From contig NZ_KZ984554.1 of the NCBI RefSeq assembly GCF_003574445.1, forward strand, positions 63,503 to 127,502: DNA of 64,000 bases, given 5' to 3'. Below, piece after piece: positions 36,321 to 61,653 of the stretch (its first letter is position 1; every line of letters begins with the position of its first letter). The notes beneath the pieces are model-generated. The model was not told where the DNA came from. It saw nothing but the letters and a program-made list of their open reading frames with translations, and did not search any database. The position numbers and the translations under genes are program-made. Source of the DNA: Streptomyces sp. YIM 130001 (GTDB taxonomy: Bacteria; Actinomycetota; Actinomycetes; Streptomycetales; Streptomycetaceae).

Positions 36321-36911
36321 TCAAGTCCGTGGCAGGTCCGTCACCGCCTGCAGCAGCCCCCAGGTGAAGTCCGCTGTGCGGGTGTGTACGACGCCTTGGG
36401 TGTCCGCCGCGTCGAAGCGCAGGCGCCAGCGGGACGGTGCGGTCCCCTCCAGCGGCTGCGCCGGGGCGAACGCGCGCGCCACCTCGTCCACCACGCAGGA
36501 GAACGGCTGCAGGTCCTCGACCGTCCTGAGGTCCGGACCGGTCGCTCCCGGTGCTCGGACGAGCCATTCGTTCCAGGCCGCACCGTTCGGCGCGAGCAGT
36601 ACTTCGAAGCGCAGATCGGGCCAGAGGGGCACCGGCCAGAGCAGCGCCTCGCACTCGAGGTCGCCGATCCGCCGCCGGTTCTTCGCCTCGGGCGGTCCGA
36701 GCACCGAGCGGTACCGGGCGGCCGAACCGCGCCCACCGGGCGAGCGCACCATGGCCTGCCAGCGTCGGTTCGCCTCGCGCATGTCGGCCGCGCCGGCGCC
36801 GAGTCGGCGTCGGGCGTCCTCGACGAGCTCCGGATTGTGGTCGGCCATCCGGCGCAGCAGCACCAGCTGGAAGTCGAGTGGGGTGAACGGCGCGGGTGTA
36901 CGGGCAGGCAT
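36321..36911 (-). CDS. Conserved-looking soluble protein, unknown function
   Basis: 196 residues from ATG 36911. It looks like a genuine globular protein with no membrane segment or signal peptide. Landmarks are FTPLDFQLVLLRRMADHNPELVEDAR in part, DLRFEVLLAPNGAAWNEWLV, PFSCVVDEVARAF and TRTADFTWGLLQAV. I do not recognise the family. It ends 64 bp from the convergent malonate regulator and lies 103 bp downstream of the FkbM gene on the same strand, so it may be the last gene of the envelope-glycan block or separate. The upstream gap holds a short tandem repeat. Ribosome site unclear. Confidence 0.65.
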   Translation of the reverse strand: MPARTPAPFTPLDFQLVLLRRMADHNPELVEDARRRLGAGAADMREANRRWQAMVRSPGGRGSAARYRSVLGPPEAKNRRRIGDLECEALLWPVPLWPDLRFEVLLAPNGAAWNEWLVRAPGATGPDLRTVEDLQPFSCVVDEVARAFAPAQPLEGTAPSRWRLRFDAADTQGVVHTRTADFTWGLLQAVTDLPRT

Positions 36912-36937
36912 GCGGCCATGGTCACCCGGCGGCACCC

Positions 36938-36994
36938 GCCCGCGCATCCGCACCCGCGCATCCACATCCGCACCCGCGCATCCATCTCCGTGCC
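36938..36994. repeat. Imperfect tandem repeat upstream of the unknown gene
   Basis: Repeats of CATCCGCACCCGCG and shorter CGCATCC words (three to four copies) between the unknown gene and the FkbM gene. A few copies would be translated if the unknown gene began further upstream. Confidence 0.65.
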
Positions 36995-37014
36995 GCCGCC
37001 CGCGCGAGCGCCCG

Positions 37015-37812
37015 CTACCGCGTGCGTGCTCCCTGCGTGCGGCTGCCCCGTCCCGGGCGGCGGCCGTCCGGCATGAAGAGCACCGAGTTCACGTAACGCG
37101 GGCCGCGGAACGGCAGGACCCGGCGCAGCAGCCCCTGAGTGACCACGTGCTCGGTGGCCGCCTGATGGGCGTCCAGGTCGAAGCCGTCCAGTGCGATCCA
37201 GCTGTCGCCGGGCAGCACCCAGCCGCGGTAGCCGTGCCGGGCGAGCAGGTCGACCACGGGCGCGGTGGGCTGGATACGGGCCTCCAGCTCCACGATCAGC
37301 GCGGGCCTGTCACGGTCGAGCAGCTCCAACGCGCCGTTCAGCACCGGCAGTTCGTTGCCGTCGACGTCGATCTTGACGAAGCCCACGTCGCGCAGCGCGA
37401 GCCCGTCCAGGGTCAGCGACGGTACGTCCAGGGCCTGTCCGTGGATGTCGCGGCGGACCAGGGAGGACACCCCGCGGTCGCCGCGGTCGCCGGTGGGCAG
37501 CCAGAGCCTGGCGGTGCCGTCCCGGTCGGACGCGGCAGCCCGGACGACCCGTACGTTCGCGGGGGTCGCCGCGTCGAGGGTGCGGGCGAGGTGGGGTACC
37601 GGTTCGACCGCGACCACGTGCCTGGCCCGTGCCGACAGCCGCAGCGACCAGGGCCCGTACCAGCCGCCGACGTCCACGGCGGTGCCGCAGTTTCGGGGCA
37701 AGTAGTCGCCCAATCGGGCCAGTTCGGGCTCGAAGCGGGGATAGACGAGCCGGGCGAGCGCGCCGGTGAGGCGGGTGGGAAGGAGGGGCCCGATACGGGC
37801 GGCGATGGTCAT
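37015..37812 (-). CDS. FkbM-family SAM methyltransferase
   Basis: 265 residues. SAM site: GTAVDVGGWYGPWSLRLS (motif I), VVAVEPVPHLA (motif II acidic), then the FkbM hallmark VGFVKIDVDGNELPVLNG and ALIVELEARI. The family O-methylates sugars and polyketides, and in sugar loci usually modifies glycans. The start ATG overlaps the Trm112-like stop (ATGA), so it is translationally coupled to that gene and sits at the distal end of the operon running from 41700. The last 20 residues are Arg/Gly-rich and probably disordered. Confidence 0.88.
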   Translation of the reverse strand: MTIAARIGPLLPTRLTGALARLVYPRFEPELARLGDYLPRNCGTAVDVGGWYGPWSLRLSARARHVVAVEPVPHLARTLDAATPANVRVVRAAASDRDGTARLWLPTGDRGDRGVSSLVRRDIHGQALDVPSLTLDGLALRDVGFVKIDVDGNELPVLNGALELLDRDRPALIVELEARIQPTAPVVDLLARHGYRGWVLPGDSWIALDGFDLDAHQAATEHVVTQGLLRRVLPFRGPRYVNSVLFMPDGRRPGRGSRTQGARTR

Positions 37813-38030
37813 GACGCCTCGGCTGCCTCGATCCGTTTGACCAGACGTTCGTGCTCGTCGTCCGGTACCTGGTCGCCCGAGGACGGCAGGAGTTGCGGGA
37901 TTCCGTCCAGGATCGGGTAACGCCGGCGCAGGCGCGGGTTGTAGAGCGCCGCCTCGGGTTCGAGGAGGTGCAGCGGGCCCTTGTCGATCGGGCAGGCGAG
38001 GATCCTGAGAAGCGGGTCGTCGGGGTTCAA
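37809..38030 (-). CDS. Trm112-like small protein
   Basis: 73 residues: LLRILACPIDKGPLHLL, then YNPRLRRRYPILDGIPQLLP, matching the Trm112/UPF0434 family. Trm112 in eukaryotes is a methyltransferase activator with a zinc site; bacterial forms often sit beside methyltransferases or glycan genes. Only one Cys is present here, so zinc binding is doubtful. It overlaps the FkbM methyltransferase start by 4 bases and follows the DMT transporter by 6 bp, fitting a methyltransferase-partner role. Confidence 0.85.
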   Translation of the reverse strand: MNPDDPLLRILACPIDKGPLHLLEPEAALYNPRLRRRYPILDGIPQLLPSSGDQVPDDEHERLVKRIEAAEAS

Positions 38031-38036
38031 GTCGGC

Positions 38037-39593
38037 TCAACTCCTTGTGGGGCGCTGGCTGGGCGGGGGCTTGCGGTGTCCCGGGAAGGGCGGAGGAGGC
38101 GGATGGGGCGCGGCCTCCCGGTCCTCGGGGGCCGGCTGCGGCGGGAGCCGGATCTCGATGTCGGGGTCGGGGGCGCCAGGGGCATCGGTGGGGGAGCGCG
38201 GGGGTGTGGATTCCGGTACGGCGTCGGGTTCCGGGTCGGGTCCCGGCCCCGGAGAGGGTGCGGGAGCGGGCGCAGGTACCGGAGCCGGCGAGCGGTCCGC
38301 AGGCCCGGCGGGCGCGGGAGCCGGTTCGGCGCCGGATGTGGGGCCCGCTTCCGGCGCCTGGTCCCCGCCCGGTTTCGGCTGCACGGTCACCGGCCGCGCA
38401 GCCGCGGGCATCGTCTTCGTCGGCAGGCCCCGCGTCCGTGCCCGCACGGCCCGCGACCGGTCGTCGTCGAACCACTCGCCGACCCGGGACCCGCCGTCCT
38501 CGGCACCGGACCCGTTCGCCGCCTCGGCGGCCGACCCCACCGCCCGTCCGTTGCGCCGTTCCGCTGCCGACCTCTTTGCGCGTGACGGGAGTTGCGGAGG
38601 TCCGGAGCCGCCGTCCCCGACCGCGACGGTCTGCACGGGACCGGCTTCCCGGTCCGACACCACGGCAGCCTCCGGCTCGCCGTCCTCCGGAGCCGGCCCG
38701 GACTCCGCCGGCGCCTCCTCCTCGTCGTGCCGAGGCAGCACGAGCAGCACCGACACCGCCAGCGCCGTGCCCGCGACCCGCAGCGTGAGGCGGACCGGGT
38801 CCTCGGGCAGCGGCTCGCCGAAGGCGAAGGTGCCGAGGACCGCGGTGAACAGCGAGGTCACCGTCGTACAGACCGGCACGATGAGGGAGGCACGAGACCG
38901 CTGCAGCGCGGCCTGCGACATGATCAGGCCGAACGCGCCCGTGAACAGCAGGAGATACGGGTACGGCGAGGCCAGCACATCCACCACCGCACCCCCGACC
39001 CCGCTGGTCGTGAGGTGGCTTGACACTCCCTTGATGGCCAGCGAGCTGACCCCGTAGAGGAGCCCGACGGCCATGCCGTACTCGACGCCGTTGGTCGGCA
39101 TCCGGTGGCGGCGGCGGGCGTTCCGCTCGGCGTTCGCGTAGAGCCAGAGGCCGCCGGCGAGGGTCGGGACGCAGATCAGCAGGACCAGGCCGGGCGGCGC
39201 GTGCCGGCTCACCGTGTCGGCGCCCTCCTTCAGCGAGAGCACCACCATCAGCAGGGCGATCAGGATCGCGCCGATCGCGTACCGCTCACGACCCGAGGTC
39301 CGCTCGCCGAGCAGACGGGACGAGAGCAGCACGAGCAGGACGAGCCCGGACACGAAGATGCCCTGGGCCGCGGCGATCGGCAGTGTCCGGTAGACGGCGA
39401 GCTGCGCCCCGAACCCCCCGGCCAGGGCCAGCGATCCGCCGATCCACAACGGACTGCGCAGGACATGGCCGAGCAGCCGCAGCGGACGCCGGGTGGAGAG
39501 CGCGGGGAGCGTGGACAGGGCGCGCTTCTCCAGGACGAAGCCCAGGCTGTACAACGTGTTCGCCACCAGGGCGGCGGCCACCCCCCACCACAT
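38037..39593 (-). CDS. DMT-superfamily transporter with long Pro-rich tail
   Basis: 518 residues. The first about 305 are membrane (nine or ten helices) in the pattern of EamA/NIPA-like DMT proteins: MWWGVAAALVANTLYSLGFVLEKRAL, AAAQGIFVSGLVLLVLLSSRLLGE in part, IVPVCTTVTSLFTAVLGTFAFGE. The remaining about 210 residues are a cytoplasmic low-complexity tail rich in Pro, Ala, Glu and Asp with APAPAPAP-type runs. Transport of a lipid-linked or nucleotide sugar intermediate is plausible from context but not shown; a Mg2+ or small-molecule role is possible. It starts 2 bp before the stop of the methyltransferase gene upstream, so it is in the operon. Confidence 0.82.
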   Translation of the reverse strand: MWWGVAAALVANTLYSLGFVLEKRALSTLPALSTRRPLRLLGHVLRSPLWIGGSLALAGGFGAQLAVYRTLPIAAAQGIFVSGLVLLVLLSSRLLGERTSGRERYAIGAILIALLMVVLSLKEGADTVSRHAPPGLVLLICVPTLAGGLWLYANAERNARRRHRMPTNGVEYGMAVGLLYGVSSLAIKGVSSHLTTSGVGGAVVDVLASPYPYLLLFTGAFGLIMSQAALQRSRASLIVPVCTTVTSLFTAVLGTFAFGEPLPEDPVRLTLRVAGTALAVSVLLVLPRHDEEEAPAESGPAPEDGEPEAAVVSDREAGPVQTVAVGDGGSGPPQLPSRAKRSAAERRNGRAVGSAAEAANGSGAEDGGSRVGEWFDDDRSRAVRARTRGLPTKTMPAAARPVTVQPKPGGDQAPEAGPTSGAEPAPAPAGPADRSPAPVPAPAPAPSPGPGPDPEPDAVPESTPPRSPTDAPGAPDPDIEIRLPPQPAPEDREAAPHPPPPPFPGHRKPPPSQRPTRS

Positions 39594-39595
39594 GG

Positions 39596-40381
39596 CTACG
39601 CCGTGCCCGCGGCCCGGTGCCCCGGCCCGTCCGAGCCACCGCCGGGCCCGTCGCCCCGCTTACGTGCGTGCACGAGCAGGATCGACGCGGCACTCGGCGC
39701 CGCGCAGACCAGCCGGTCGAGCGGTCTGAGCACCTTCGGCACTCCGTGGAAGGGCGCACCCGCCACCCGCACCACGTCGAACCCGGAGGCGGTGAGGAAC
39801 TCCTTGAGGGCGCGGGCCGTGTACAGGCGCAGATGCCCGACGACCTCGGAGCCCGGCCGTCCGTGGATGCCGCGCAGGCTCACCTCCGAGAACACCGGCT
39901 GCACCCCGGCGAGCAGCAGGGCGCGGTTGTACCAGGCGGCCAGGTTCGGCGTCGAGATCATCAGATGACCCCCGGGCTTGAGGACCCGGCGCAGTTCGTC
40001 GAGAGCGCTGTCCGGGTCGACGAGGTGCTCGATGACCTCGCTGAACAGAACGGCGTCCGCGCAGCCGGGGCTCAACGGTAGCCCGGCGTCCGAGAGTTCG
40101 CCCCTGATCACGTCCGACATATGCGTACGGGCCCGGCGCAGCGCGTCCTGCGACCAGTCGACGCCGACCACCCGGTGACCGGCGAGCAGCGGCGCCGCTG
40201 CCCGTGCCGCGGTGCCGTCTCCGCAGCCGACGTCGAGGACGACGGACGGCTCCGCACCGGCCGGCCCGAGCGCGTCGGCCAGCATCCGGGCCTGGCGCAG
40301 GCTGCGGGCGTCCCCGGAGGCGACGGGCACGGCGGGGTCCTCGTAGAAGTCGCGGAGCCCGCCCGGCAGCGTGGACGTCAT
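39596..40381 (-). CDS. Class I SAM methyltransferase (type 11)
   Basis: 261 residues. SAM motifs: VVLDVGCGDGTAARAA (I), VVGVDWSQDALRRA (II), ADAVLFSEVIEHLVDPDSAL in part (post-II, ubiE/type-11 style) and VLKPGGHLMISTPN. HGRPGSEVVGHLRLYTARAL suggests a glycan/lipid-associated clade. The ATG overlaps the acyltransferase stop (ATGA) and it is followed after 2 bp by the DMT transporter. It probably methylates a sugar or lipid intermediate made by this locus. Confidence 0.88.
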   Translation of the reverse strand: MTSTLPGGLRDFYEDPAVPVASGDARSLRQARMLADALGPAGAEPSVVLDVGCGDGTAARAAAPLLAGHRVVGVDWSQDALRRARTHMSDVIRGELSDAGLPLSPGCADAVLFSEVIEHLVDPDSALDELRRVLKPGGHLMISTPNLAAWYNRALLLAGVQPVFSEVSLRGIHGRPGSEVVGHLRLYTARALKEFLTASGFDVVRVAGAPFHGVPKVLRPLDRLVCAAPSAASILLVHARKRGDGPGGGSDGPGHRAAGTA

Positions 40382-41700
40382 CGAGGGTCCTCCGTCGCGT
40401 GCAGATACTGCTCGAACAGGTCACGCAGCCGGGCCCCGTCGTCCGGCCCGAGCAGCGTCCGCGACCAGCGCAGCGCCAGGTGCAGGCGCCCAGCCGTCGA
40501 CGCGGTGGTGACGGTCAGGCCGCGCGGTACGCGGGCGGGCGCGGAGAACCACACCGCGCTCGCCCGGCCCGCGTCACCGAAGTCCATGGCGTACGGGATC
40601 CGTCCGATGTTGCTGAGCAGCGTCGTCGAGGTCCAGGGCCCGGCCGCGGCGCGCAGTGCCCGGGTGAGCGCGGCACGCGCCGCGACCGGCACCACGGGTG
40701 AGGTCAACAGGGCTGCCCCGTGCCCGAGTTGAGGACGCTGGGCCGCCTTGAGTGCGCGGGTGCGGGTGGCGGTGAGCCGCAGCAGCTCCCCGAGCCGGTC
40801 CGGATCGACCTCCTCCGCGGCGAACGGCACCTCGACGAGCCGGGTGCCGTTGCCGATCGGCATCGAGGCGTCCCGCGGCCGGTCGTCCACCGGCATGGTG
40901 ATCCGCATCGGCCGCCGCGGTCCGCCGTGCTCCCGGTTCCAGGCGGCGATCATCAGCGTGGTCGCCACCATCAGCTGGTCGTTGACGGTGTACGGGGCGC
41001 CCTCGGGGCGGTGCGGTACGGGCAGCTCGGCGACCAGCATCCCGTTGCCAGGATCGGGGCGGCCACCGGACGACCTCGGGGCGCCGCCCGCGATACGGGC
41101 CGGCCGGGCGAACCCCGAGGGCAGCGCCGCCGGCTGACCGGGCGAGTCGGTGCGGCGGACCGGGGGCGCGGCGGGCGCGTTGTCCACCCCGCCGTACAGT
41201 TCCGCCGCCGTCGCGAGGACCCGCAGACAGGCGGGCCCGTCGAGCGCCGTGTGGTTGACCACGAGGAACAGCACGCAGCCGCCGCCGTCCCCGGGGTCGT
41301 CGACGCACTCAAGACGCACCGGCGGCGAGGCGGCGAGGGGCGGGGCCGAGGCGAGGGCCCGTGCCCGGGCCGCCTGCCGGGCGTCGGGGCCCGGCTCGGG
41401 GAAGCTCACCACCGTGACGTCCGGGTTCCCGGTCAGCTCCCACTCGTAGCGCCGCGCGTACCAGCGTCGCGGCGCCTCCCGCACCAGGACGCGGGGGTGG
41501 CGGCGCAGCGCCTCGTGGAACGCCTCCTCCAGGCGGCGCCGGTCGGGGCGGCCCGGCAGGTGCACCTCGATGTGGACGGTCTCGGGTTCGTCCTCCTGCA
41601 GGCAGTGCCGTGACACCTCGTCCACCACGGGGAACGGCACCCGGCGCGGCGGCGGTTCGGGCGCACCGGGTCGCTGGGCGGGGTGGTCCACGGCCGTCAT
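40378..41700 (-). CDS. Condensation-fold acyltransferase (PapA/WS-DGAT-like)
   Basis: 440 residues from ATG 41700, with GGAGGG 5 bases upstream; in-frame ATGs at 41730 and 41796 lack such a site. The active-site motif is VNHTALDGPACL, i.e. the HHxxxDG signature of CoA-dependent acyltransferases with the first His changed to Asn and the catalytic second His kept. RPMRITMPVDDRP and SNIGRIPYAMDFG match the floor-loop and bridging regions of PapA-type enzymes. In mycobacteria such proteins acylate sugars or glycolipids. Here it heads an operon with methyltransferases, suggesting acylation of a cell-surface glycan or glycolipid. Confidence 0.82.
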   Translation of the reverse strand: MTAVDHPAQRPGAPEPPPRRVPFPVVDEVSRHCLQEDEPETVHIEVHLPGRPDRRRLEEAFHEALRRHPRVLVREAPRRWYARRYEWELTGNPDVTVVSFPEPGPDARQAARARALASAPPLAASPPVRLECVDDPGDGGGCVLFLVVNHTALDGPACLRVLATAAELYGGVDNAPAAPPVRRTDSPGQPAALPSGFARPARIAGGAPRSSGGRPDPGNGMLVAELPVPHRPEGAPYTVNDQLMVATTLMIAAWNREHGGPRRPMRITMPVDDRPRDASMPIGNGTRLVEVPFAAEEVDPDRLGELLRLTATRTRALKAAQRPQLGHGAALLTSPVVPVAARAALTRALRAAAGPWTSTTLLSNIGRIPYAMDFGDAGRASAVWFSAPARVPRGLTVTTASTAGRLHLALRWSRTLLGPDDGARLRDLFEQYLHATEDPR

Positions 41701-41806
41701 CGGCCCTCCGTTCCTCGTGCGGCCCGCCATGGCGACGCGGGCCGGATCTGCGGCGCTCCCCCCGGCCCGATCCGGGCCGGGGAGACGGTTGTTCATCGGC
41801 AGTCGC

Positions 41807-44800
41807 TCATCGACTGTCGTTCCCGTCCTCGCCGGGCGGCGGGTCCGACGGCGGCCGGGTCGCCCTGAACTTCGGTTTGCCGAACGGCAGTCGGGTGGTC
41901 TCCGGATCCGGATCGGGTGCGGCCGCACCGGGCCCGCGCGCCGAGACCGTCGGCCCGGCGGTGCCGAGTGGCGGCGTGGCCGAATCCGGCCCGGCCGGCC
42001 CCGGGTTCGCCCCCCGTTCACGGCGAGGCAACGGGGTGGTGGGCGGACCCTGCCGCGACTCCGCCGACCCCACCGGTGCGCCGTACGCAGGACCCGCGGG
42101 CGGCACCGGACCGTAGTACGGCGCGGGCCCCGGCGACGCCACGGGCTCGTTCTCCTGCTGCTGGTCCCGTACGGTCACCAGCGCGGCGAACACGGCGATC
42201 AGCGCCAGGAGTTGGGCCACCGGCGAGAACGCGCCGGAGTCCTCCGACACCGCCTGCCCGGCCCCGACGGCCGCGACCGCTCCCGCGGCAGCCATCGCCA
42301 CGAACGCGATCGGCACAAGCAGCGCGTGCCGCCACCAGGCCAGCACCGCGAGCGCCGGCACGAGCAGCGCGAACGGACCCGCGACCACCACACCGACCAG
42401 CGTCAGGACGACCGCACCGAGCACGAACCCGGGCCCCGGCGCCACCGGCGGCACGACACCGGCCTCCGTGTCGGGGTCGGTCTCCCTACGGCGGATCAGC
42501 GCGAGACCGATCAGGAGCAGCAGCGCGACGGCCCCGCCGATGAGACCGACCTGATAGGTGGTGGCCGGTTCGTAGGTCAGCTCGATGGTGCCGCTGGCGT
42601 CGGCCGGCACCAGCCAGCCCTGCTGCCAGCCGTCGAGCCGCACGGTCTGCAGCTCCTTGCCGTCGACGGTGGCCTTCCAGCCGTCGTTGACGTTCTCGTA
42701 CATCGTCAAGTACGAGGCGGCGCCCGCTCCGACGGTCAGGGAACGCTCGTCGCCGGCCCAGTCACGTACCGACATCTCCCGCTCGGTGGTGGCCGGAGCC
42801 TCCGCCTCGCCGCTGGTGAGCGAGACATCGGTGAGGGCGAGCGGGCCTTGGTCGCCGGCCTCGACGCGGTGCGTGCCGCTGCCGAGCGACACGGTGCCGT
42901 CCTCCTCCTCGCCGGCGCACAGGGTGACCTCGATCGGCTTGCGCTCGGTGAGATCACGGACCGAACCCTTGGCGCTGGTCGCGTGCAGAGTGCCGTCCAC
43001 GGCGAGCGGCGGTCCTTGGCCGCAGCCGAGTTCGAAGGTGGCGTCCTTCTTCGGCTGCGGAGTGCGGTACTCCTCGAGAGCCGGCACATGGACCTCGGTG
43101 AGACCGACCGGCAGCTGCGTCTTCCGGTCCGCGAACGGGTTGTGCACCGTCAGCGGCGCACTCTCGGTGATGGTGATGTCGAGCCGGTCGGTGGTGATCG
43201 GCTCGAACCGTGCCCAGCCGTTCTCGTCCACTCCGGCGACCGCCGCGCCGTCGGGGGAGCTGATCTCCACCTTCTGCGGTCGGGCGGACAGGCCACCGGC
43301 GGCCGGCAGCACCAGCTCGCTGATCTCCTTCTTGTCCGGCCAGCGCAGATGCAGTACGGCGGAGTCGCCCGCGATCCACGCACTGGTCAGGTCGCCGTCG
43401 GTGAGGTTCCGCGGCGAAAGCCCGGCGCCGAGCTGCGCGGTGGAGTCCGCGGTGATCTTGATCTGCTGCTTCTGCTCGGGCGCCACCTCGTAGAGCAGCT
43501 CGTCGAGTTCCTTGCCCGGTACCGGGATCGCCTGGGCGGAGACCTGGTAGTCGCCGCTGCCCTCGGTGTCGAACCGGCGGTGCAGACCGTTCTCGGCGGC
43601 GACGGGGGACAGGCCGCCCGGGTCCGCCGCCCGGTGCAGCGAGTACTGCGTGGCACCGGCCTCGGATCCCTCGGCGTCCGCCGGCAGGCTGAGCATCCGG
43701 GTCACCTGCACGTCCGGGATGCTGATCTCGGAGAAGCCCGCACCGGAGGCCGACGGCTGCGGTTTCTGCACATCGAGGATGGTCAGCTTCATCCAACTGG
43801 AGCCGCCCTGCCGGGCCTTGATCTTCTGCGGCTGACCGTTCGGCTGCAGCGTGGAGACCGCGCTGCCGGCCTGCGTCTCGACCTTCACCCGGGTCGGCGC
43901 GGCGCGCACTCCGCTCTGCGGCAGCGGCGTGACGGTGAAGTCGGCCGGTACGTAGGTGCGTTTGCTGAAACCGATCCGCAGCCACTCACCCTCGGGCGAG
44001 GACGCGGTGCCCTCGGCCCAGGCGGTGTCCGGATTGCCGTCGAAGGCGTTCACCGGGTCGAACTGGGGCAGGTGGAAAAGCCAGTTGCCGCTGGACGAGG
44101 CCGTCACCGACTTCGCGCCGCGCAGCACGGCCGTCGTCTGATGCCCGACACCCTCGTTCGGCAGGATCTGATGCGGCTTCTCGCCCGGGTTCTGGACGCT
44201 GCCGCTGTGGTTCCGCTCGTCCTTCGTATAGGTGTAGGACGTATGGGAGTTGATCAGGCCGAAGCGGGTGTCGGCGCGACGCAGCCCGTCGCCGACCGTC
44301 TGCAGCGGCGGCTTCCCGAGGCCCGGATGGTTGTCGCCGGTCAGGACGGTCGGGCGGTCGCGCATCGCCGGGTCGGCGGACAGCGGAAGGAGTGACTCGG
44401 GGCCGCCGCTGACCACGGCCGTGTTGGCGACCGGCTTCAGACCGGCCTGGCCCGGCCGCTCGGTGTCGTCACCCGGCCGGTAGATCTCCACCGCCCGCTG
44501 GCGCGGGTAGAGGCCCTCGACCTGGATGGGGGTGTCGTCGGCGATCCGGCCGCCGGTCATCTTCGGCCCGAAGCCGGTGGCCCGCTCGTACCCGGAGGAC
44601 TCCAGGGTGCGCTTGACGGTCGCGGTCGGTACGTAGCCCATCTGGTCGGGGTCGAGGTCGTTGCGTACGACGACGTAGTGCAGCCCGGCGCGACTCAAGT
44701 AATCCTGCAGGCCCGGAACTTCACCGCCGGTGAGCAGCGCCTGCTCGACGGCGTCCATGGCGCGCCGGTTGCCGGGTGCGCCGAACGGCACATAGTCGCG

Positions 44801-46291
44801 CTGCGCCCAGCGGGACTCGGCGAGCACATCGAGCGGCTGGTCGATGGTCGAGCCCCAGGTGTAGATGCCGTGCGCGGTGGCAGGCACCACGAGCGACCTC
44901 GAGTCCGGCGAGTTCTTCTTCAGCCAACTGGCCGTCGTCTTCCAGTACTTGGGCAGCTCCTGGAACGAACCCGGCTGCAGGATCGCCCCGCTGGCGTACG
45001 GCAGGAGCAGCCCCGGCAGCACGAGCACCGCGGCGATCAGCGGCGCGAAGCGGCGCCCGCGCACCGGCCGCGCACCGCGCGCCTGCGCGGCCACCCCGAC
45101 CAGATGCATCAGACCGAAGGCGAGTGCGAGTCCGAGCCCCGTCTGGAACTTGTAGATGTTCCTGAACGGCACCAGAGCACCGTCGAGCAGGTCCTGCACG
45201 ACCCCGTGGAACGGCGCGCCGAACGCGCCGCCGTATCCGGCCAGCGTGACCAGGACGACCGACACGACGGTCAGCACCAGCCAACGCCGCTCCGGCAGAT
45301 CGCGGCGGGCCAGCCCGGCGAGCCCGAGCGCCGCGGCGAGGGCGGAGCCGGCGATGGCGAGCCAGCTCGCGGCGACCGCCCAGCCCGCCGGCAGCCAGGC
45401 CTCACCCATGTTCAGGTACGCCACCCAGTTGCCCGCCCCGCGCAGTGCCTCGGTGGCGGACATGGTCTCGGTGGTGGTCTGCGCGTTCTCCACGTACGGC
45501 AGGAAGTTCTCGCCGTGCAGTCCGAGCATCAGGAGTGGCACGACCCACCAGGCGGTGGCGAGCAGCACCCCCGGCACCCACCACAGGATCAGCCGTCGCT
45601 GCCGAGGACCGCGCGGCCGGGACAGCAGATACAGGCCGACGGGCAGCAGCGAGGCGAGTGTGGAGGCCGCGTTGACCCCGCCCATGAACGGGATCACGAG
45701 TGCGGAGCGCAGCGCCGCATTACGGGCACTCAGCCGCGGATCGGCCAGCGGCAGCAGCACCCACGGCAGCACCGCACCCGGCAGCGCGGCCGCCGAGGTC
45801 GAGCCGACGACGATGGTGAAGGCGGGCCACAGGGCGAAGGCGGCCGCGCCGACGAGCCGGGCGCGGGAGTTGCCGATGCCGAAGCGCTCGGCCAGGCGCA
45901 GCGCACCCCAGAAGGCGGCGGCCACGATGAGCGACATCCACAGCCGCTCGGCCAGCCACACCGGTATCTGCAGCAGATCGGTGAGCGCGTAGTACGGCAG
46001 CATCGGGAAGGCGTAGCCGACGTACTGGTTGGTGATGCCGCCGAAACCGGCCTGGTCGCTCCAGAGTTGGCCCAGATCGCCGAGGAAGCGCCAGGGGTCG
46101 CTGGTCACCCCGAGCTTGGTGTCGAACGTCTGCCGCCCGGGCGAGGCCGCGACGAACAGGACGAACACCAGGGCCCAGACCCCGAGCAGCCACCCCCGGG
46201 ACCGCGGTCCCTCGGGCGGATCCGCGGCGGGAACCGTGGTCGGAGCCGGCACCCGAGGTGGCAGCTGAGGGCTCTGGACCGTGCTGGTCAT
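41807..46291 (-). CDS. AftD-like alpha-(1,3)-arabinofuranosyltransferase
   Basis: 1494 residues. ATG 46291 overlaps the upstream stop (ATGA). The N-terminal GT-C part has about 11 membrane helices and, in the first extracytoplasmic loop, the RQTFDTKLGVTSDPWRFL segment, where AftD has its conserved Asp-Thr-Lys. Mid-chain extracytoplasmic region: two discoidin/F5-8-type carbohydrate-binding modules (FDGNPDTAWAEG and LTDGDLTSAWIAGD). The C-terminus returns to the membrane (YQVGLIGGAVALLLLIGLALI and further helices) and ends in about 130 Pro-rich residues. In mycobacteria AftD adds arabinose from decaprenyl-phosphoarabinose to arabinan. Size and domain order match. The acceptor in Streptomyces is unknown. 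Confidence 0.88.
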   Translation of the reverse strand: MTSTVQSPQLPPRVPAPTTVPAADPPEGPRSRGWLLGVWALVFVLFVAASPGRQTFDTKLGVTSDPWRFLGDLGQLWSDQAGFGGITNQYVGYAFPMLPYYALTDLLQIPVWLAERLWMSLIVAAAFWGALRLAERFGIGNSRARLVGAAAFALWPAFTIVVGSTSAAALPGAVLPWVLLPLADPRLSARNAALRSALVIPFMGGVNAASTLASLLPVGLYLLSRPRGPRQRRLILWWVPGVLLATAWWVVPLLMLGLHGENFLPYVENAQTTTETMSATEALRGAGNWVAYLNMGEAWLPAGWAVAASWLAIAGSALAAALGLAGLARRDLPERRWLVLTVVSVVLVTLAGYGGAFGAPFHGVVQDLLDGALVPFRNIYKFQTGLGLALAFGLMHLVGVAAQARGARPVRGRRFAPLIAAVLVLPGLLLPYASGAILQPGSFQELPKYWKTTASWLKKNSPDSRSLVVPATAHGIYTWGSTIDQPLDVLAESRWAQRDYVPFGAPGNRRAMDAVEQALLTGGEVPGLQDYLSRAGLHYVVVRNDLDPDQMGYVPTATVKRTLESSGYERATGFGPKMTGGRIADDTPIQVEGLYPRQRAVEIYRPGDDTERPGQAGLKPVANTAVVSGGPESLLPLSADPAMRDRPTVLTGDNHPGLGKPPLQTVGDGLRRADTRFGLINSHTSYTYTKDERNHSGSVQNPGEKPHQILPNEGVGHQTTAVLRGAKSVTASSSGNWLFHLPQFDPVNAFDGNPDTAWAEGTASSPEGEWLRIGFSKRTYVPADFTVTPLPQSGVRAAPTRVKVETQAGSAVSTLQPNGQPQKIKARQGGSSWMKLTILDVQKPQPSASGAGFSEISIPDVQVTRMLSLPADAEGSEAGATQYSLHRAADPGGLSPVAAENGLHRRFDTEGSGDYQVSAQAIPVPGKELDELLYEVAPEQKQQIKITADSTAQLGAGLSPRNLTDGDLTSAWIAGDSAVLHLRWPDKKEISELVLPAAGGLSARPQKVEISSPDGAAVAGVDENGWARFEPITTDRLDITITESAPLTVHNPFADRKTQLPVGLTEVHVPALEEYRTPQPKKDATFELGCGQGPPLAVDGTLHATSAKGSVRDLTERKPIEVTLCAGEEEDGTVSLGSGTHRVEAGDQGPLALTDVSLTSGEAEAPATTEREMSVRDWAGDERSLTVGAGAASYLTMYENVNDGWKATVDGKELQTVRLDGWQQGWLVPADASGTIELTYEPATTYQVGLIGGAVALLLLIGLALIRRRETDPDTEAGVVPPVAPGPGFVLGAVVLTLVGVVVAGPFALLVPALAVLAWWRHALLVPIAFVAMAAAGAVAAVGAGQAVSEDSGAFSPVAQLLALIAVFAALVTVRDQQQENEPVASPGPAPYYGPVPPAGPAYGAPVGSAESRQGPPTTPLPRRERGANPGPAGPDSATPPLGTAGPTVSARGPGAAAPDPDPETTRLPFGKPKFRATRPPSDPPPGEDGNDSR

Positions 46292-47007
46292 GGACACCGC
46301 CGGAGAATGAGGAGGAGGTTCCAGGTGGCGACTTCTCGCAGGCCGGGCACCTTGGCGACGGCTCCGGCGAGGAACGGCCAGTAGCGGGACCTGGCCGAGA
46401 CGACCTGGACGTCGTCGCGGGCCCGCACCTGTTTGAGGGTGGGCCCGATGTGGATGGCGTGGAGGTTCTCGCCGAGGGTGTGCTTGACGGGCTTGCCGGT
46501 GCGGCGCTGGTAGCGGCTGACCGCCCGGTCGGCGCCCAGGTAGTGCCAGGGCGCCCATTCGTGGCCGCCCCACGGCGAGTACCAATTGGTGAACGAGACG
46601 TAGATGAGCCCACCGGGCCGCGTCACCCGGACCATCTCGCTGAGGAACGTCCCCGGATCGTCCACGTGCTCGAGGACGTTGGAGGAGAACGACACATCGG
46701 CGACGCCGTCCGCGAGCGGCAGCAGATAGCCGTCGGCGAGCACGGTGCCCTCCGGCGGACGGCTGCCGATCTCACCGGCGTCGGGCTCGAAGAGGTAGCT
46801 CTGCGCGCCGCGGCGCCGGAACTCCTCGGTGAAGTAGCCCCCGCCGCCGCCGATGTCGACGACGACGCGGTCCTTCAGCGGGACGTAACGCTCGACCTGG
46901 TTCGCCGCGTCCCGGGCGAGCAGGGTGTACGTGTGCTCGGGGTCCTGCTGTTCGCGCATGAACGCCCGGAACAGCGTGACCGATCTGCGGATCGACGGGT
47001 CCTTCAC
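46288..47007 (-). CDS. SAM methyltransferase of the AftD locus
   Basis: 239 residues from GTG 47007, overlapping the glycosyltransferase stop (GTGA). Motifs: VVVDIGGGGGYFTEEF, YLFEPDAGE, DVSFSSNVLEHVDDP and GGLIYVSFTNWYSPWGGHE. It sits between a GT4 glycosyltransferase and the AftD-like gene with overlapping codons on both sides, so the three are tightly coupled. From memory, mycobacteria carry a similar methyltransferase/GT4 pair near a DUF3068 gene, so a conserved glycan or glycolipid modification is likely. Confidence 0.9.
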   Translation of the reverse strand: MKDPSIRRSVTLFRAFMREQQDPEHTYTLLARDAANQVERYVPLKDRVVVDIGGGGGYFTEEFRRRGAQSYLFEPDAGEIGSRPPEGTVLADGYLLPLADGVADVSFSSNVLEHVDDPGTFLSEMVRVTRPGGLIYVSFTNWYSPWGGHEWAPWHYLGADRAVSRYQRRTGKPVKHTLGENLHAIHIGPTLKQVRARDDVQVVSARSRYWPFLAGAVAKVPGLREVATWNLLLILRRCP

Positions 47008-48200
47008 GTGCGCCGGCCCTTCGTTCTGCGCGGATCTCCCGGCGCGCTCGCCGCGGCTGCCGTCTCCACCGCCTCGGCCGCGACGGCGCGGAACTGCCGG
47101 ACGGTGTTGGACCAGCGATAGTCGGCCGCGCGGTCGGCGGCGGCCTTGCCGAAGGCGGTACGGCGCTCCGCGGACAGCGCGAGGGTGCACCAGGCGGCGG
47201 CGAAGGACGACTCGCCGCGGGCGAGCACCCCGGTGACGCCGTCCTCGATGGAGTCCCTGAGACCGGGGACGTCGAAGCCGATCGCGGGCGTGGCCCGGGT
47301 CGCGGCCTCGGTGACGACGAGCCCCCAGCCCTCGACGGCGGACGGATGGAGCAGCAGCCAGGCGGCGCAGAGCAGGCGGTGCTTCTCCGCCTCGGATATG
47401 TGCCCGGTGAACTGCACGGAAGGACCGGCCATCCGCTCGAGGCGCTCGCGCTCGGGACCGTCGCCGACGATGACGAGCCGCCCGCCGGTAACGGGTCTGA
47501 CCCGCTCCCACAGGCGGAGCAGCAGATCGATCCGCTTGTACTCGACGAGCCGTCCCATCGCGAGGAACAGTGGCTCGTCGCTGCGGGGTTCGAGCGGCCC
47601 GGGCTCCTCGACACCGTTGTGCACGATGCGGATCCGCTCGCCCGGCACCCCGATCGACTCGAGCGCACCGGCGGTCGAGGGCGACACCGCCACCAGGAGA
47701 TTGCCGCGCTGCGCGCCGGCCAGCGCCCAGTGCTCGAGCTTGCGTCCGAGCCGGGCCGCGGGGGCCGGGTAGCGCATCCCCCACAGGTCGGTGTGCACAT
47801 GGTTGACCAGGCACAGGGTGGGTCCCCGGTGCCACAGCGGTGCCAGGTACGGCATGCCGTTGCAGACCTCGACGAGCAGATCGCAGTCGCCGACCTGCCG
47901 GGTGAAGGTGCTGCGGGCCTTCAGGTAGTGGCCCAGGTCCCCGCCCGCAGAGACCACCCGGTAGTCCCGGTACGCGGCTGGGCCGCCGCACAACAGGGTG
48001 ACCTGGTGGCCGCTCCGGGTGAGCCCGTCGGCGAGCTGGTCGACGAGCAGTTCGGAGCCGCCGGCGGCCGCGTTGCCGAGGTCGCGGCGGGACAGGAAGA
48101 CGATGCGGCGAGGGTGCGGTGCGGCCGTGCCCGGCACGGCACGGTGCAGAGCCTCCCGGGGCTGTGAGTCGCGCAGGGAAGGAGGTACGTGCTGGGGCAT
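47004..48200 (-). CDS. GT4-family glycosyltransferase
   Basis: 398 residues. GT-B fold: the N-domain has IVFLSRRDLGNAAAGGSELLVDQLA in part (glycine-rich acceptor loop) and the C-domain has FLAMGRLVEYKRIDLLLRLW, LVIVGDGPERERLER and the donor-site EGWGLVVTEAATRATP with its E-x7-E pair. A soluble retaining enzyme using a nucleotide sugar; it would add a sugar to a lipid-linked precursor at the inner face of the membrane before export. It starts the cluster GT4-methyltransferase-AftD with 4-base overlaps. The 270-bp gap upstream is AT-richer and probably holds the promoter. Confidence 0.9.
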   Translation of the reverse strand: MPQHVPPSLRDSQPREALHRAVPGTAAPHPRRIVFLSRRDLGNAAAGGSELLVDQLADGLTRSGHQVTLLCGGPAAYRDYRVVSAGGDLGHYLKARSTFTRQVGDCDLLVEVCNGMPYLAPLWHRGPTLCLVNHVHTDLWGMRYPAPAARLGRKLEHWALAGAQRGNLLVAVSPSTAGALESIGVPGERIRIVHNGVEEPGPLEPRSDEPLFLAMGRLVEYKRIDLLLRLWERVRPVTGGRLVIVGDGPERERLERMAGPSVQFTGHISEAEKHRLLCAAWLLLHPSAVEGWGLVVTEAATRATPAIGFDVPGLRDSIEDGVTGVLARGESSFAAAWCTLALSAERRTAFGKAAADRAADYRWSNTVRQFRAVAAEAVETAAAASAPGDPRRTKGRRT

Positions 48201-48473
48201 CCGTGCTCCAACTCGTCTCGGGGTGCGGTGACGGAGATGCGATGGCAGGTGGTGCGTTCCCGGGCCCCTCGCAAGGGGCCGGGACTGACCGGGGAGGCCG
48301 TGGAGCGGGGGATGGTGGTGGAACTCCGTTTGTCCGGCAGCCAGTTGTCTGTGTGCTGGCTGTGTTCATTCGGTGGGGATGGACAGTTTTCGCCGACGCG
48401 TTCGATGCGGCTACTCACGGAAGTGACAATTTCACGCGCAGTTGACACTGACGTCTCATCACTTCGTTGTGAA
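48201..48473. other. Gap between GT4 gene and DUF3068 gene; likely promoter region
   Basis: No gene seen. The part from about 48370 to 48470 is AT-richer than its surroundings and contains TTGACA at 48439-48444 on the plus strand and TTGTCA on the minus strand near 48424. A hairpin GGCCCCT-CGCA-AGGGGCC lies near 48266-48288. No -10 pairs convincingly. Confidence 0.4.
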
Positions 48474-49421
48474 TTACTGCGTGGATCGCGGTTCCCGGCC
48501 CCGTACGACCAGAACACCGCCCACCGCCACCACCGCGAGTCCGACGCCTCCGGTGCCCACCGGCAGTACCTCGCCGACGAGTTGGAGCCGGCTGCTGTCG
48601 TCGTCGGCGAGAGCCACCTGCTTCTTCTGCGTGTCGGCGTTGAAGACCATCTTCTTGCTGTCGAGCAGCACCACCGCGTCCTTGTCCGAACCCGGCTTGC
48701 GGAGCGTCTTCCTGGGACCGATCTGGGCGTTGATGATGCGGCCGGTGCGCTCGTCCACGACCAGTTCGATGCCGTGGTTGGCGTACCACTCCTCGGCGAG
48801 GACCTGACCGGCCTTCGAGCCGACCAGAGTGCCCGGGACCTGGCGTGTTCCGGTCTTGGCCGGCTCCACGGAACCGGTGAACCGGAGCCCCTCGTAGCCC
48901 TGGATCTTCTTGGTGCCGCGGTACTTCAGCGGCACGGTGGCGCCGAGGGTGTTGTCCCACCAGGTGTACGAGCGCTTCTCCACGTCGAAGGGGAACTTCA
49001 GGTACGCCTCGCCCTCGAAGTACGGCTCCTCCTGGCAGCAGTGCACCGGGGAGTTGGTCTGCCGGTCGGTGACCCAGCGCTCCAGGGTCCACTGCAGCGA
49101 GTCGTGCGGATCCTCGGCGGGCAGCGACTTGTCCGGATCCACCGAGGTCGACACGTCCCAGATGGCCCGGCCGCTCTTCTCGCTGTCGGCGACGTCGCCG
49201 CGGACCTGGCGGGTGATCGTCAGGTTCTCGTCTCGGACGGTCTCGACTTTTCCGGTGTCGAAGTACGCGCCCTTTCCCTCGAAAATTGTGGTCACGTCGA
49301 TGTCCACGGGCGTGCGCTTGGCCCGCGGTTCGACGTACCAGGCAAGCATCGGTGCGAGTACCAGGAGGAAGACCCCGACACCCAGCACGATCAGCGAAAA
49401 CGGGGAAGCAGTACGGCGCAT
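48474..49421 (-). CDS. DUF3068 (PorA-like) membrane-anchored protein
   Basis: 315 residues. ATG 49421 with GGAG 7 bases upstream. N-terminal anchor PFSLIVLGVGVFLLVLAPML, a large extracytoplasmic domain with RGDVADSEKSGRAIWDVSTS in part, YFEGEAYLKFPFDVEKRSY in part, VVDERTGRIINAQIG, and a C-terminal helix VGLAVVAVGGVLVVRGRE. This two-anchor layout and YLKFPF/ERTGR signatures match DUF3068, found across actinobacteria and, in my recollection of mycobacterial genomes, near the same GT4 and methyltransferase genes. Function unknown. A CC pair (HCCQEEPYFEG) is present mid-domain. Confidence 0.85.
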   Translation of the reverse strand: MRRTASPFSLIVLGVGVFLLVLAPMLAWYVEPRAKRTPVDIDVTTIFEGKGAYFDTGKVETVRDENLTITRQVRGDVADSEKSGRAIWDVSTSVDPDKSLPAEDPHDSLQWTLERWVTDRQTNSPVHCCQEEPYFEGEAYLKFPFDVEKRSYTWWDNTLGATVPLKYRGTKKIQGYEGLRFTGSVEPAKTGTRQVPGTLVGSKAGQVLAEEWYANHGIELVVDERTGRIINAQIGPRKTLRKPGSDKDAVVLLDSKKMVFNADTQKKQVALADDDSSRLQLVGEVLPVGTGGVGLAVVAVGGVLVVRGREPRSTQ

Positions 49422-49627
49422 CCGGGTACTCCAGAGGGTTTTGGGGCGGCTCGGAGGAGGCTCACTGCCGCGAGAAAACGAGTCGGAAAAACGCACCTGC
49501 GCATCTGGGCCGGGAACCGTAGGCGCACCCTTGACGAACTGTCAATCGATTGTCGACACTGGGCTACTGCCGGTTGGGGCCGGCGGGGGACTGGTGGGTA
49601 ACCTCCGACAGAGAGGCTGAACCTGCC

Positions 49628-49780
49628 ATGCACAGACTCGTGGCCGCAGGACTCACCGCGGCCCTGGCCGCCGCACTCGCCGTGGGCGCGGCCTTCGGCA
49701 TCGTCGCGATGCTCGACGCCACACCGGAGCAGCCGAACACGCCGCTCGTCACCTACGAGACGGCCCAGCGGGAGCGCTGA
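49628..49780 (+). CDS. DUF2613-like small membrane protein
   Basis: 50 residues: MHRLVAAGLTAALAAALAVG begins a single membrane segment, followed by about 22 polar residues (ATPEQPNTPLVTYETAQRER). Length, one N-terminal helix and short extracytoplasmic tail fit DUF2613, a small-protein family that in mycobacteria sits beside aftD. The match is by shape and partial motif, so moderate. GAGAGG lies 11 bases before the ATG; TAACCT at about 49598-49603 could be a -10. The next gene begins 4 bp after the stop, so the two are probably co-transcribed. Confidence 0.65.
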   Translation: MHRLVAAGLTAALAAALAVGAAFGIVAMLDATPEQPNTPLVTYETAQRER

Positions 49781-49784
49781 CCGG

Positions 49785-50981
49785 ATGCCCGCCCGATCGG
49801 CCTGGCGCGATGTGCCACGGCTGCAGGTGAAGCAGTTCGCCGCGCTCGCCATGGACGAAGTACCGCAGCTCGCGCAGGACATCCTGCGCGAGATCCGCCG
49901 CGAGTATCCCCATCTGCCCGTCGTGCTCGACGAGTCGGGCGAGCCGATGGCACTCGTGGGCATCCGGCGCGCCCTGGAGGGCTTCGTCAAGCAACTGGTG
50001 CTCACCGAGGGCCGGCCGCGCTATCTCCCGGAAGTCTTCCAGGAGTTCGGTCGCGGCGAGGGCCTGAACGGCCGCAGTCTCGACTCGCTGCAGGCCATCT
50101 ACCGTCTCGGGGTGCGGCTGGCCTGGCGCCGCCTCGCCGAGATCGGGCAGCAGATCGAGATCCCGCCGCCCGCGATGTACGAGCTCGCCGAATCCGGATT
50201 CGAGTACTTGGACGGCCTGGTGGACGAATCGGTGCGCGGCTACGCGGAGGCGGCGGCCCGCCAGGCCGGTGAACGCCTGCGGCTGCAGCGCAAGTTGATG
50301 GAACTCCTGCTCGCCGACCACCCGCGCGGCGACCATGCGGACGCACTCAAGGAGCGGGCGGCCCGCGTCGGTTGGCCGCTGCCCGAGAGAGTGGCCGTCG
50401 GCGTCCTGCGCCGGCCCGCCCGCGAGGCGATGGCCCCGGCGGTTGGCCAGGGCGTGCTGCTCGACATGGAGACCGAGCAGCCCCGCATGGTCGTACCCGA
50501 ACCGGGCGCCGCGGGCCGCCCCGAACTGCTGCGCCGAGCCATGGCCGGCTGGTCCGGCGCGATCGGTCCGCCGGTGCCGCTGGTGGACGCGGCGAAGTCG
50601 CTGCGGTGGGCGGAGGCCGCGGTCGGTCTGATGGGGCGCGGACTGCTGCCTGCGGGCGAGGTGTTGTTCTGCACGGAGCACACCGAGGCGCTGGTGCTGC
50701 TGCAGCCCGAGGAGCTGATCGACGACCTGGCCGGCCGCTGCCTCGCGCCGCTCCAGCTCTGCGGGCCCGCGCATGCGCGGCGGCTCGCGGAGACCTTGCT
50801 CGCCTGGCTCGAGACCCGGGGCGGCGCCCCGGAGGTGGCCTCCCGCCTCGGCGTCCACCCCCAGACGGTCCGCTACCGCCTGCGCCAGATCCGCGAACTC
50901 TGGGGCGACGAGATCGACGACCCCGACCACCGCTTCCAGCTCGAACTGGTGTTACGGGCCCAACGCTTGAGGGGTTCCTGA
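49785..50981 (+). CDS. PucR-type helix-turn-helix regulator
   Basis: 398 residues. The C-terminal HTH_30 domain reads ETLLAWLETRGGAPEVASRLGVHPQTVRYRLRQI in part, ending near residue 385; the middle is a GGDEF-like/CdaR domain and the N-terminal 150 residues are helical (KQFAALAMDEVPQLAQDILREI in part). Members activate or repress catabolic or fatty acid genes, and the fasR gene in this window is of the same type. It follows a 50-residue membrane protein by 4 bp. Target unknown; no operator identified. Confidence 0.88.
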   Translation: MPARSAWRDVPRLQVKQFAALAMDEVPQLAQDILREIRREYPHLPVVLDESGEPMALVGIRRALEGFVKQLVLTEGRPRYLPEVFQEFGRGEGLNGRSLDSLQAIYRLGVRLAWRRLAEIGQQIEIPPPAMYELAESGFEYLDGLVDESVRGYAEAAARQAGERLRLQRKLMELLLADHPRGDHADALKERAARVGWPLPERVAVGVLRRPAREAMAPAVGQGVLLDMETEQPRMVVPEPGAAGRPELLRRAMAGWSGAIGPPVPLVDAAKSLRWAEAAVGLMGRGLLPAGEVLFCTEHTEALVLLQPEELIDDLAGRCLAPLQLCGPAHARRLAETLLAWLETRGGAPEVASRLGVHPQTVRYRLRQIRELWGDEIDDPDHRFQLELVLRAQRLRGS

Positions 50982-58939: not shown

Positions 58940-60202
58940 TCAGACCGACCGGAAGGCCAGGACCACGTTGTGGCCGCCGAAGCCGAACGAGTTGTTCACC
59001 GCGGCGATGGTGCCCTCGGGCAGCGGACGCGGTTCGTCGCGCACGATGTCCGCGTCGACGTCCTCGTCCAGGTTGTCGACGTTGATGGTCGGCGGAGCAA
59101 GCCGGTTGTGCAGGGCGAGGACCGTCGCGACGGTCTCGATACCGCCCGCGCCGCCCAGCAGATGGCCGGTCATCGACTTGGTGCTGGAGATCGCGACGTG
59201 GTCGAGGTCGTCGCCGAGCGTCTTGCGCAGCGCCTTGATCTCCGCGATGTCGCCCTGCGGCGTGGAGGTGGCGTGCGCGTTGAGGTGGACCAGTTCGGCC
59301 GGCTTGAGGTCCGTCGCGTCGAGCAGGTTCTGCATGGCGGCGGCGATACCGCGGCCGGTCGGCTCGGGCTGCGCGATGTGGTGGCTGTCCGCGGACAGAC
59401 CCTGGCCGAGTACCTCGCAGTAGACCCGGGCGCCGCGCGCGGCGGCGTGCTCGGCCGACTCGAGGATCACGACGCCCGCGCCCTCGCCGAGCACGAAGCC
59501 GTCACGGGCCGTGTCGTAGGGCCGGGAGGCCTTCTCGGGTTCGTCGTTGCTCTTGGACATCGCCATCATGTTGGCGAACGCGGCGATCGGCAGCGGGTGG
59601 ATCGCCGCCTCGGTGCCGCCGGCCACGACCACGTCGGCGCGGCCGGCGCGGATCATCTCGACCGCGTAGCCGATGGCCTCGGCGCCGGAGGCGCACGCGG
59701 AGACCGGAGTGTGCACGCCCGCCTGGGCGTTGACCTCGAGGCCGACGTTCGCCGAGGGGCCGTTGGGCATCAGCATGGGCACGGTGTGCGGGGAGACGCG
59801 GCGTACGCCCTTCTCCTTGAGTACGTCGTACTGGTCGAGGAGCGTGGTCACGCCGCCGATGCCGGAGGCGATCACGGCGCCGAGCCGGTCGGGGGCCACG
59901 GTGTCTTCCTCGCCGGCCTTGCCGGTGTAACCCGCGTCCGCCCAGGCCTCCCTGGCCGCGATCAGTGCGAACTGCGCCGAGCGGTCGAGACGGCGGGCGA
60001 GGGGGCGGGGCAGCACCTCGGCCGGGTCGACCGCCGCGAGAGCGGCGATCTTGACCGGCAGATCGGCGTAGCGCTCGCCCTCGAGGGCGACTACGCCGGA
60101 ACGTCCCGCGATCAGACCTTCCCAGGTCGATGCGGAGTCGCCACCCAGCGGTGTGGTTGCGCCGATACCGGTGACGACCACGGTGCGATTGGTCGGGCTC
60201 AC
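58940..60202 (-). CDS. fabF: Beta-ketoacyl-ACP synthase II
   Basis: 420 residues from GTG 60202. Condensing-enzyme triad: Cys in VSACASGAEAIG (about residue 170), His in LNAHATSTPQGD and His in KSMTGHLLGGAGG. C-terminal NNSFGFGGHNVVLAFR is the typical FabF end. It extends acyl-ACP with malonyl-ACP in type II fatty acid synthesis. It is last in the operon fabD-fabH-acpP-fabF, 85 bp after acpP, and probably shares the FasR-controlled promoter. AGAAAG lies about 8 bases before the GTG. Confidence 0.97.
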   Translation of the reverse strand: MSPTNRTVVVTGIGATTPLGGDSASTWEGLIAGRSGVVALEGERYADLPVKIAALAAVDPAEVLPRPLARRLDRSAQFALIAAREAWADAGYTGKAGEEDTVAPDRLGAVIASGIGGVTTLLDQYDVLKEKGVRRVSPHTVPMLMPNGPSANVGLEVNAQAGVHTPVSACASGAEAIGYAVEMIRAGRADVVVAGGTEAAIHPLPIAAFANMMAMSKSNDEPEKASRPYDTARDGFVLGEGAGVVILESAEHAAARGARVYCEVLGQGLSADSHHIAQPEPTGRGIAAAMQNLLDATDLKPAELVHLNAHATSTPQGDIAEIKALRKTLGDDLDHVAISSTKSMTGHLLGGAGGIETVATVLALHNRLAPPTINVDNLDEDVDADIVRDEPRPLPEGTIAAVNNSFGFGGHNVVLAFRSV

Positions 60203-60287
60203 AGGAATTCTTTCTCCACGTCTCGGAATGGGGCGGTGGATCCGGAAACGAACGGCGCCACCGCCGGGTGGCGTACGAAGCGGGGGG

Positions 60288-60536: not shown

Positions 60537-60604
60537 TTTGGCGCTCCTTCGTATGTATCAGGTGGTTTGCGGCTGTTCCGACCGGATGATCCGGGCGGGG
60601 TCGC

Positions 60605-61636: not shown

Positions 61637-61653
61637 GCTCTCGAGGCTCCTTC

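Follow-up and report, generated by a model that had tools for sequence, protein, structure and literature searches.

An AftD–PgfA gene cassette of Streptomyces sp. YIM 130001 and its possible role in tailoring an envelope glycan

A stretch of 64,000 nucleotides from Streptomyces sp. YIM 130001 (RefSeq assembly GCF_003574445.1, contig NZ_KZ984554.1, positions 63,503 to 127,502), referred to here in its full length as the window, holds a cassette of ten minus-strand genes (36321–49421; positions without a contig prefix follow the numbering of the window) together with a divergent gene for a 50-residue peptide and a gene for a PucR regulator, both on the plus strand. Among the products of the cassette is a glycosyltransferase of the AftD family. 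We propose, with a confidence that stands about midway between doubt and acceptance, that these genes tailor an envelope glycan, that they share common descent with the mycobacterial locus which finishes arabinans and lipoglycans, and that AftD adds a sugar, most likely D-arabinofuranose. The identities of the genes, their fixed order and conservation, a core common to other actinobacterial families, the presence of DprE1 and DprE2 and the absence of UbiA from this genome are direct results, whereas the roles of the products are proposed. The walls of Streptomyces are generally classed as lacking arabinose. Searches of an open library of papers brought up no publication that deals with AftD in Streptomyces or with its donor, although papers beyond that library could exist. 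The conserved cassette is present in over a third of the sampled Streptomyces, mostly with a full or partial pathway for decaprenyl-phosphoarabinose (DPA), and suggests an undescribed sugar coat.

The AftD-family protein and its conserved surroundings

The AftD-family GT-C glycosyltransferase (41807–46291, minus strand; 1494 residues) scores 750 bits with PF11847 (cut-off 26), the match covering positions 2–658 of the 661 in the profile. Its C-terminus carries F5/8C and CBM_AftD modules, PF00754 and two stretches of PF24607, which also score above cut-off. A phmmer comparison with the solved mycobacterial AftD (PDB: 6w98) gave an E value of 7e-140 over 830 residues. Enzymes of the GT-C(A) class need an essential Asp in juxtamembrane helix 1 (PMC12041299). 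Asp57 in the motif DTKL, which is kept in every aligned AftD sequence covering that site, would by its position be the expected catalytic Asp. The mycobacterial AftD is reported there, after Alderwick 2018, to be an arabinofuranosyltransferase of alpha(1->5) specificity (PMC12041299).

The distribution of the family was followed in 61 Streptomyces genomes and in 246 genomes of the phylum. AftD is encoded in 23 of the former, the genome under study (G000) included, and in 35 of the latter. The co-occurrence counts below use the 32 of these 35 in which the match is strong. Carriers of the cassette include S. cyaneochromogenes MK-45 (G048), Streptomyces sp. CB03234 (G006), S. aurantiacus NRRL ISP-5412 (G031), S. 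griseus NCTC13033, S. lincolnensis and S. coeruleorubidus. Gene order was compared among 50 loci with full flanks and, save for missing members, is identical in all of them: the divergent PucR and DUF2613-like genes are followed by PgfA, GT4, methyltransferase 2 (MT2), AftD, acyltransferase, methyltransferase 1 (MT1), DMT-like and Trm112-like genes and then, where present, by FkbM and an orphan gene. Because this order is the same across the 50 loci, the cassette is not a chance assembly. PgfA and the DMT-like gene are each kept in 49 loci, the small peptide in 45, FkbM in 39 and the orphan in 36; the Trm112-like gene and the divergent PucR gene are found in all 50. Further Streptomyces genomes that were read have the same order. 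S. cyaneochromogenes possesses two AftD cassettes, far apart, of which the second is more divergent.

The core of PgfA, GT4, methyltransferase and AftD extends beyond the genus to a mycobacteria-like family (f3) and to two other families (f5 and f7), in the last two of which the four genes are likewise clustered. One f3 genome (G097) encodes the methyltransferase (49% identity), GT4, PgfA and AftD, with a 57-residue peptide beside AftD, all within about 22 kb. MT2 shares 48–50% sequence identity with the syntenic methyltransferases of f3, f5 and f7 genomes, and GT4 shares 35–40% with its syntenic counterparts in other families. Two candidate markers were rejected: DUF3068 proteins (the family of PgfA) are encoded in 47 of the 61 Streptomyces genomes, the AftD-positive ones usually with a second copy elsewhere, and PF09594 (GT87) was present in all 30 Streptomyces tested.

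The sugar donor and its alternatives

On a contig other than that of the cassette, dprE1 (C1:365655–366986) and dprE2 (C1:364787–365542) are adjacent. Their products pass the equivalog models NF053785 (671 bits against a cut-off of 500) and NF053786 (376 against 250), respectively. DprE1 aligns to its M. tuberculosis counterpart with an E value of 1e-123, and Ala replaces the Cys of the motif PGWNICVDFP, which is presumably Cys387 of the M. tuberculosis enzyme. Fisher tests, in which phylogeny is ignored, associate AftD with this pathway: within the genus, DprE1 is above cut-off in 20 of 23 AftD-positive versus 14 of 38 AftD-negative genomes (p 1.6e-4) and DPPR synthase in 14 of 23 versus 10 of 38 (p 0.014), while across the phylum DprE1 is found in 24 of 32 versus 12 of 214 (p 7e-18). 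Only two of the 36 DprE1-positive phylum genomes, both Streptomyces, are without a DPPR synthase above cut-off. Given DprE1, DprE2 and this co-occurrence, the donor is probably polyprenyl-phosphate-D-arabinofuranose, a choice that we nevertheless hold near an even balance because AftD genomes without UbiA, and others without the DPA pathway, exist.

A number of observations, to which the neglect of phylogeny in these tests belongs, weigh against arabinose as the sugar. DprE1 is retained in AftD-negative Streptomyces (the 14 of 38 given above). Both DprE1 and DPPR synthase are missing from AftD-positive genomes, namely Streptomyces G046 (one contig, 100% complete) and G029, f5 genomes G144 and G197, and f7 genome G272 (one contig). 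The model for the Rv3806c-type DPPR synthase (NF008978), above cut-off in 24 of the 61 Streptomyces genomes, has no match in G000. The whole-cell sugars of the AftD-positive type strain S. sporangiiformans NEAU-SSA 1 are ribose, mannose and galactose, with no arabinose (PMC6780108). On the supporting side, in a second AftD-positive type strain, S. physcomitrii LD120, thin-layer chromatography of the whole-cell hydrolysate revealed arabinose, glucose, rhamnose and ribose (PMC7765990). Routine taxonomic sugar analyses of two AftD-positive species disagree, and the arabinose question is not settled by them. Emb arabinosyltransferases (EmbA/B/C, PF04602) were found in none of 30 Streptomyces genomes, including G000, while the C. 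glutamicum control was positive; a mycobacterial-type arabinan in Streptomyces is for this reason unlikely.

An arabinose-bearing surface glycan had been put forward in a sequence-only reading of the window, along with the expectation that DPA genes would be needed elsewhere in the genome. The latter is borne out for DprE1 and DprE2 but not for a DPPR synthase of the Rv3806c type. The former finds support in the same two enzymes; the missing synthase, the AftD genomes without DprE1 and UbiA, the lack of Emb and the conflicting cell sugars speak against it, and the presence of arabinose in the glycan is something that we infer. The AftD homologue might instead be a GT-C enzyme for some other polyprenyl-phosphate sugar, such as mannose or ribose, with no arabinose in the product and with the link to DprE1 reflecting shared ancestry or a common envelope lifestyle. 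In favor of this explanation are the five genomes listed above in which the cassette core is kept without DprE1 and DPPR synthase, the absence of UbiA from G000 and the lack of Emb enzymes. It has to contend with the strong phylum-wide co-occurrence of AftD and DprE1, and with the arabinofuranosyltransferase activity reported for mycobacterial AftD, its closest characterised relative, in PMC12041299 (after Alderwick 2018). We regard it as possible, though well short of an even chance.

In many relatives, AftD-positive Streptomyces among them, a PAP2-ubiA-gtrA trio lies divergent from dprE1-dprE2 and adjoins YihY, the PAP2 phosphatase and the GtrA-like protein having been identified by reading the sequences. 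The trio is gone and dprE1-dprE2 retained in G000, in its sister G002 and in G007, G024, G056, G005, G055, G015 and G051. On a tree built from five neighbouring genes, these losses fall in at least four lineages. Three proteins of G000 belong to the UbiA family by PF01040, one of which passes the SCO3242 prenyltransferase model, while the other two were judged from sequence to be CtaB and MqnP. The first donor-making enzyme, a UbiA of the Rv3806c type, has by these sequence criteria been lost in this strain, and the polyprenyl-phosphate ribose required by DprE1 would have to come from an enzyme of another type. What is newest in the finding is that dprE1-dprE2 persist where ubiA has gone. Among the genomes that lost the trio, G055, G015 and G051 encode a distant UbiA in another cluster. 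Distant UbiA homologues with 31–35% identity to Rv3806c were seen in other clusters of strains without the trio (loci L055, L059 and L061), at least in L055 together with glycosyltransferases.

The disappearance of the trio could also mean that this lineage is in the course of losing arabinose synthesis, with ubiA already gone and dprE1, dprE2 and aftD left as remnants. A 29-residue scar of the GtrA C-terminus (76%) in G007 fits such a history, as does a weak trace in G000 (E value 1e-4 in a narrow search). Between G000 and G002, both of which are UbiA-less, the NG86 ratios of nonsynonymous to synonymous substitution (dN/dS) are, however, 0.20 for DprE1, 0.06 for DprE2, 0.16 for AftD, 0.09–0.30 for the cassette and 0.19 for the DUF2613-like peptide, and these low values indicate that dprE1, dprE2 and the cassette genes are under purifying selection and not drifting. 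Since, moreover, at least four lineages of the tree that lost the trio have kept dprE1-dprE2, decay appears improbable. A more specific version of our proposal can be offered tentatively, being on the whole rather unlikely in all its parts: Streptomyces without mycolate or Emb would have an envelope glycan or glycolipid that bears D-arabinofuranose, methyl and acyl groups, and the UbiA-less lineages would make polyprenyl-phosphate ribose by a non-UbiA route, which would keep dprE1-dprE2 and aftD under selection.

Gene products of the cassette and a proposed pathway

The remaining products were assigned from Pfam and NCBIfam scans of the window proteins and from a reading of the gene junctions. 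The open reading frames, domains and coordinates given by the sequence-only reading were right: its GT4 enzyme, two methyltransferases, FkbM, Trm112-like, AftD and DUF3068 proteins all pass the family scans. Its description of the minus-strand run as mostly overlapping was slightly generous. Overlaps of 4 nt occur at four of the nine junctions, including FkbM/Trm112-like and MT1/acyltransferase. At three more junctions the genes are 2, 6 and about 10–106 nt apart (an alternative start of the acyltransferase may lie at 41796), about 103 nt precede the orphan gene, and 273 nt separate PgfA from GT4.

In the pathway that we propose, a lipid-linked acceptor would be built and O-methylated in the cytoplasm by the GT4 glycosyltransferase (47004–48200, minus strand; PF00534 and PF13439) and the methyltransferases, all encoded on the minus strand: the class I S-adenosylmethionine-dependent enzymes MT2 (46288–47007; PF08241) and MT1 (39596–40381; PF13489 and PF08241), and the FkbM-family enzyme (37015–37812; PF05050 and TIGR01444, above cut-off). 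The Trm112-like protein (37809–38030, minus strand), a product of 73 residues with a TTG start and a PF03966 score of 43.7 bits against a cut-off of 22, might assist. The lipid-linked intermediate may then be flipped by a membrane protein resembling the DMT transporter superfamily (38037–39593, minus strand), which has a long proline-rich tail and is a candidate flippase. For this protein, called a DMT transporter in the sequence-only reading, and for the small peptide, called DUF2613-like, the scores fall below the family cut-offs: for the transporter, 33.5 bits against 50 for NF038012 (E value 2.7e-8) and 17.6 against 26.2 for PF05653 (E value 0.002), and for the membrane peptide of 50 residues (49628–49780, plus strand), 13.3 against 22.1 for PF11021 (E value 0.09). 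The peptide nevertheless keeps its place in 45 of the 50 loci and a TP-[DE]-QPN motif in relatives, and its size is close to that of the 57-residue peptide by AftD in G097.

In the periplasm, the glycolipid would be carried or positioned by the PgfA/LmcA-type lipid-trafficking protein (48474–49421, minus strand), a DUF3068 (Pfam 'PorA') protein that scores 312 bits with the equivalog model NF053601 (cut-off 160) and 255.7 with PF11271 (cut-off 29.5). A second PgfA/DUF3068 protein of G000 is encoded outside the cassette (C5:241702–242610), where, from a reading of the sequence, it adjoins an HrpB-like helicase near a gene resembling ribosomal protein S1. With the acceptor held on its C-terminal modules, AftD would add one or a few sugars on the outside from a polyprenyl-phosphate donor, these being most likely D-arabinofuranose units from the polyprenyl-phosphate-arabinose that DprE1-DprE2 would supply. 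The product may finally be decorated by the acyltransferase (40378–41700, minus strand). This protein had been called PapA-like; it has no match in the Pfam scan, but its HxxxD motif, HTALD (H150 and D154), is invariant in 16 homologues, and an AlphaFold2 model of modest quality (mean pLDDT 66) resembles condensation domains of nonribosomal peptide synthetases (Z 20–22 over 320–383 residues, root-mean-square deviation 4.0–5.2). A condensation-domain fold is thus predicted, and the protein would be PapA-like by superfamily.

At the end of the cassette lies the orphan gene (36321–36911, minus strand), whose product of about 196 residues has a mean column identity of 70% in an alignment of 13 sequences, no Pfam or NCBIfam match, and a model (pLDDT 73) for which the fold search gave no reliable match. 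At the other end, the divergent neighbour encodes the PucR-type regulator (49785–50981, plus strand; PF13556). This adjoining regulator, the tailoring methyltransferases, the condensation-fold acyltransferase and the patchy presence (23 of 61 genomes) could fit a natural-product cluster whose enzymes would attach sugar, methyl and acyl groups to a secreted small molecule and not to a glycan of the envelope, but no core synthase was seen in the cassette, the order is fixed across the genus, and PgfA, AftD with its carbohydrate-binding modules and the core common to mycobacteria-like and other families indicate envelope work, which makes this very improbable. Near the right end of the window (58940–63857), minus-strand genes resemble those of a type II fatty acid synthase (ketoacyl synthase, acyl carrier protein, ketoacyl synthase III and malonyl transferase), as judged from the starts of the sequences only.

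Comparison with mycobacterial systems

If the proposed role is true, some of the machinery known from mycobacteria, namely the tuberculosis drug targets DprE1 and DprE2 and the AftD that arabinan formation requires, would be at work in Streptomyces as well, where the product would probably be simpler than the mycobacterial arabinan. Streptomyces are mostly harmless and genetically tractable, and the functions of PgfA and AftD might be examined there in the absence of mycolic acids. As ubiA has been lost repeatedly and dprE1-dprE2 kept, it can be tested directly whether another enzyme fills the gap or DprE1 and DprE2 act on a second substrate.

The mycobacterial locus of PgfA/LmcA, GT4, methyltransferase, AftD and DUF2613 is what we take to be the Rv0224c–Rv0227c to Rv0236c region. 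A cell-wall locus around LmcA/PgfA that includes tmaT and mtrP is conserved in Corynebacterineae (PMC8972800), and the function of PgfA has been described (PMC9678360). The mycobacterial clustering of DUF3068, GT4, methyltransferase and AftD genes, which the sequence-only reading had pointed to, is confirmed by the synteny in G097 and by PMC8972800. As in that locus, homologues of PgfA, GT4, MT2 and AftD stand close together in Streptomyces, and in G097 a small peptide of 57 residues lies beside AftD. Unlike it, the Streptomyces cassette is compact, is without tmaT and mtrP, and adds the condensation-fold acyltransferase, MT1, the FkbM, Trm112-like and DMT-like proteins, the orphan and the PucR neighbour. 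The mycobacterial arabinan system differs further in its Emb enzymes, of which the 30 Streptomyces genomes have none. The DPA pathway (Rv3806c, Rv3807c, DprE1, DprE2 and Rv3789) is encoded completely at a single locus in many Streptomyces, whereas at this locus G000 and several others have kept DprE1 and DprE2 without the genes for PAP2, UbiA and GtrA; DprE1 of G000 has Ala at the position that aligns with Cys387 of the M. tuberculosis enzyme. The AftD-family protein of the window is 31–33% identical in alignment to AftD of other families, from which it differs in its long, variable C-terminal tail, and it resembles the solved AftD (PDB: 6w98, 6wbx/6wby) in the GT-C domain over 830 residues, in the C-terminal modules and in the Asp of the DTKL motif.

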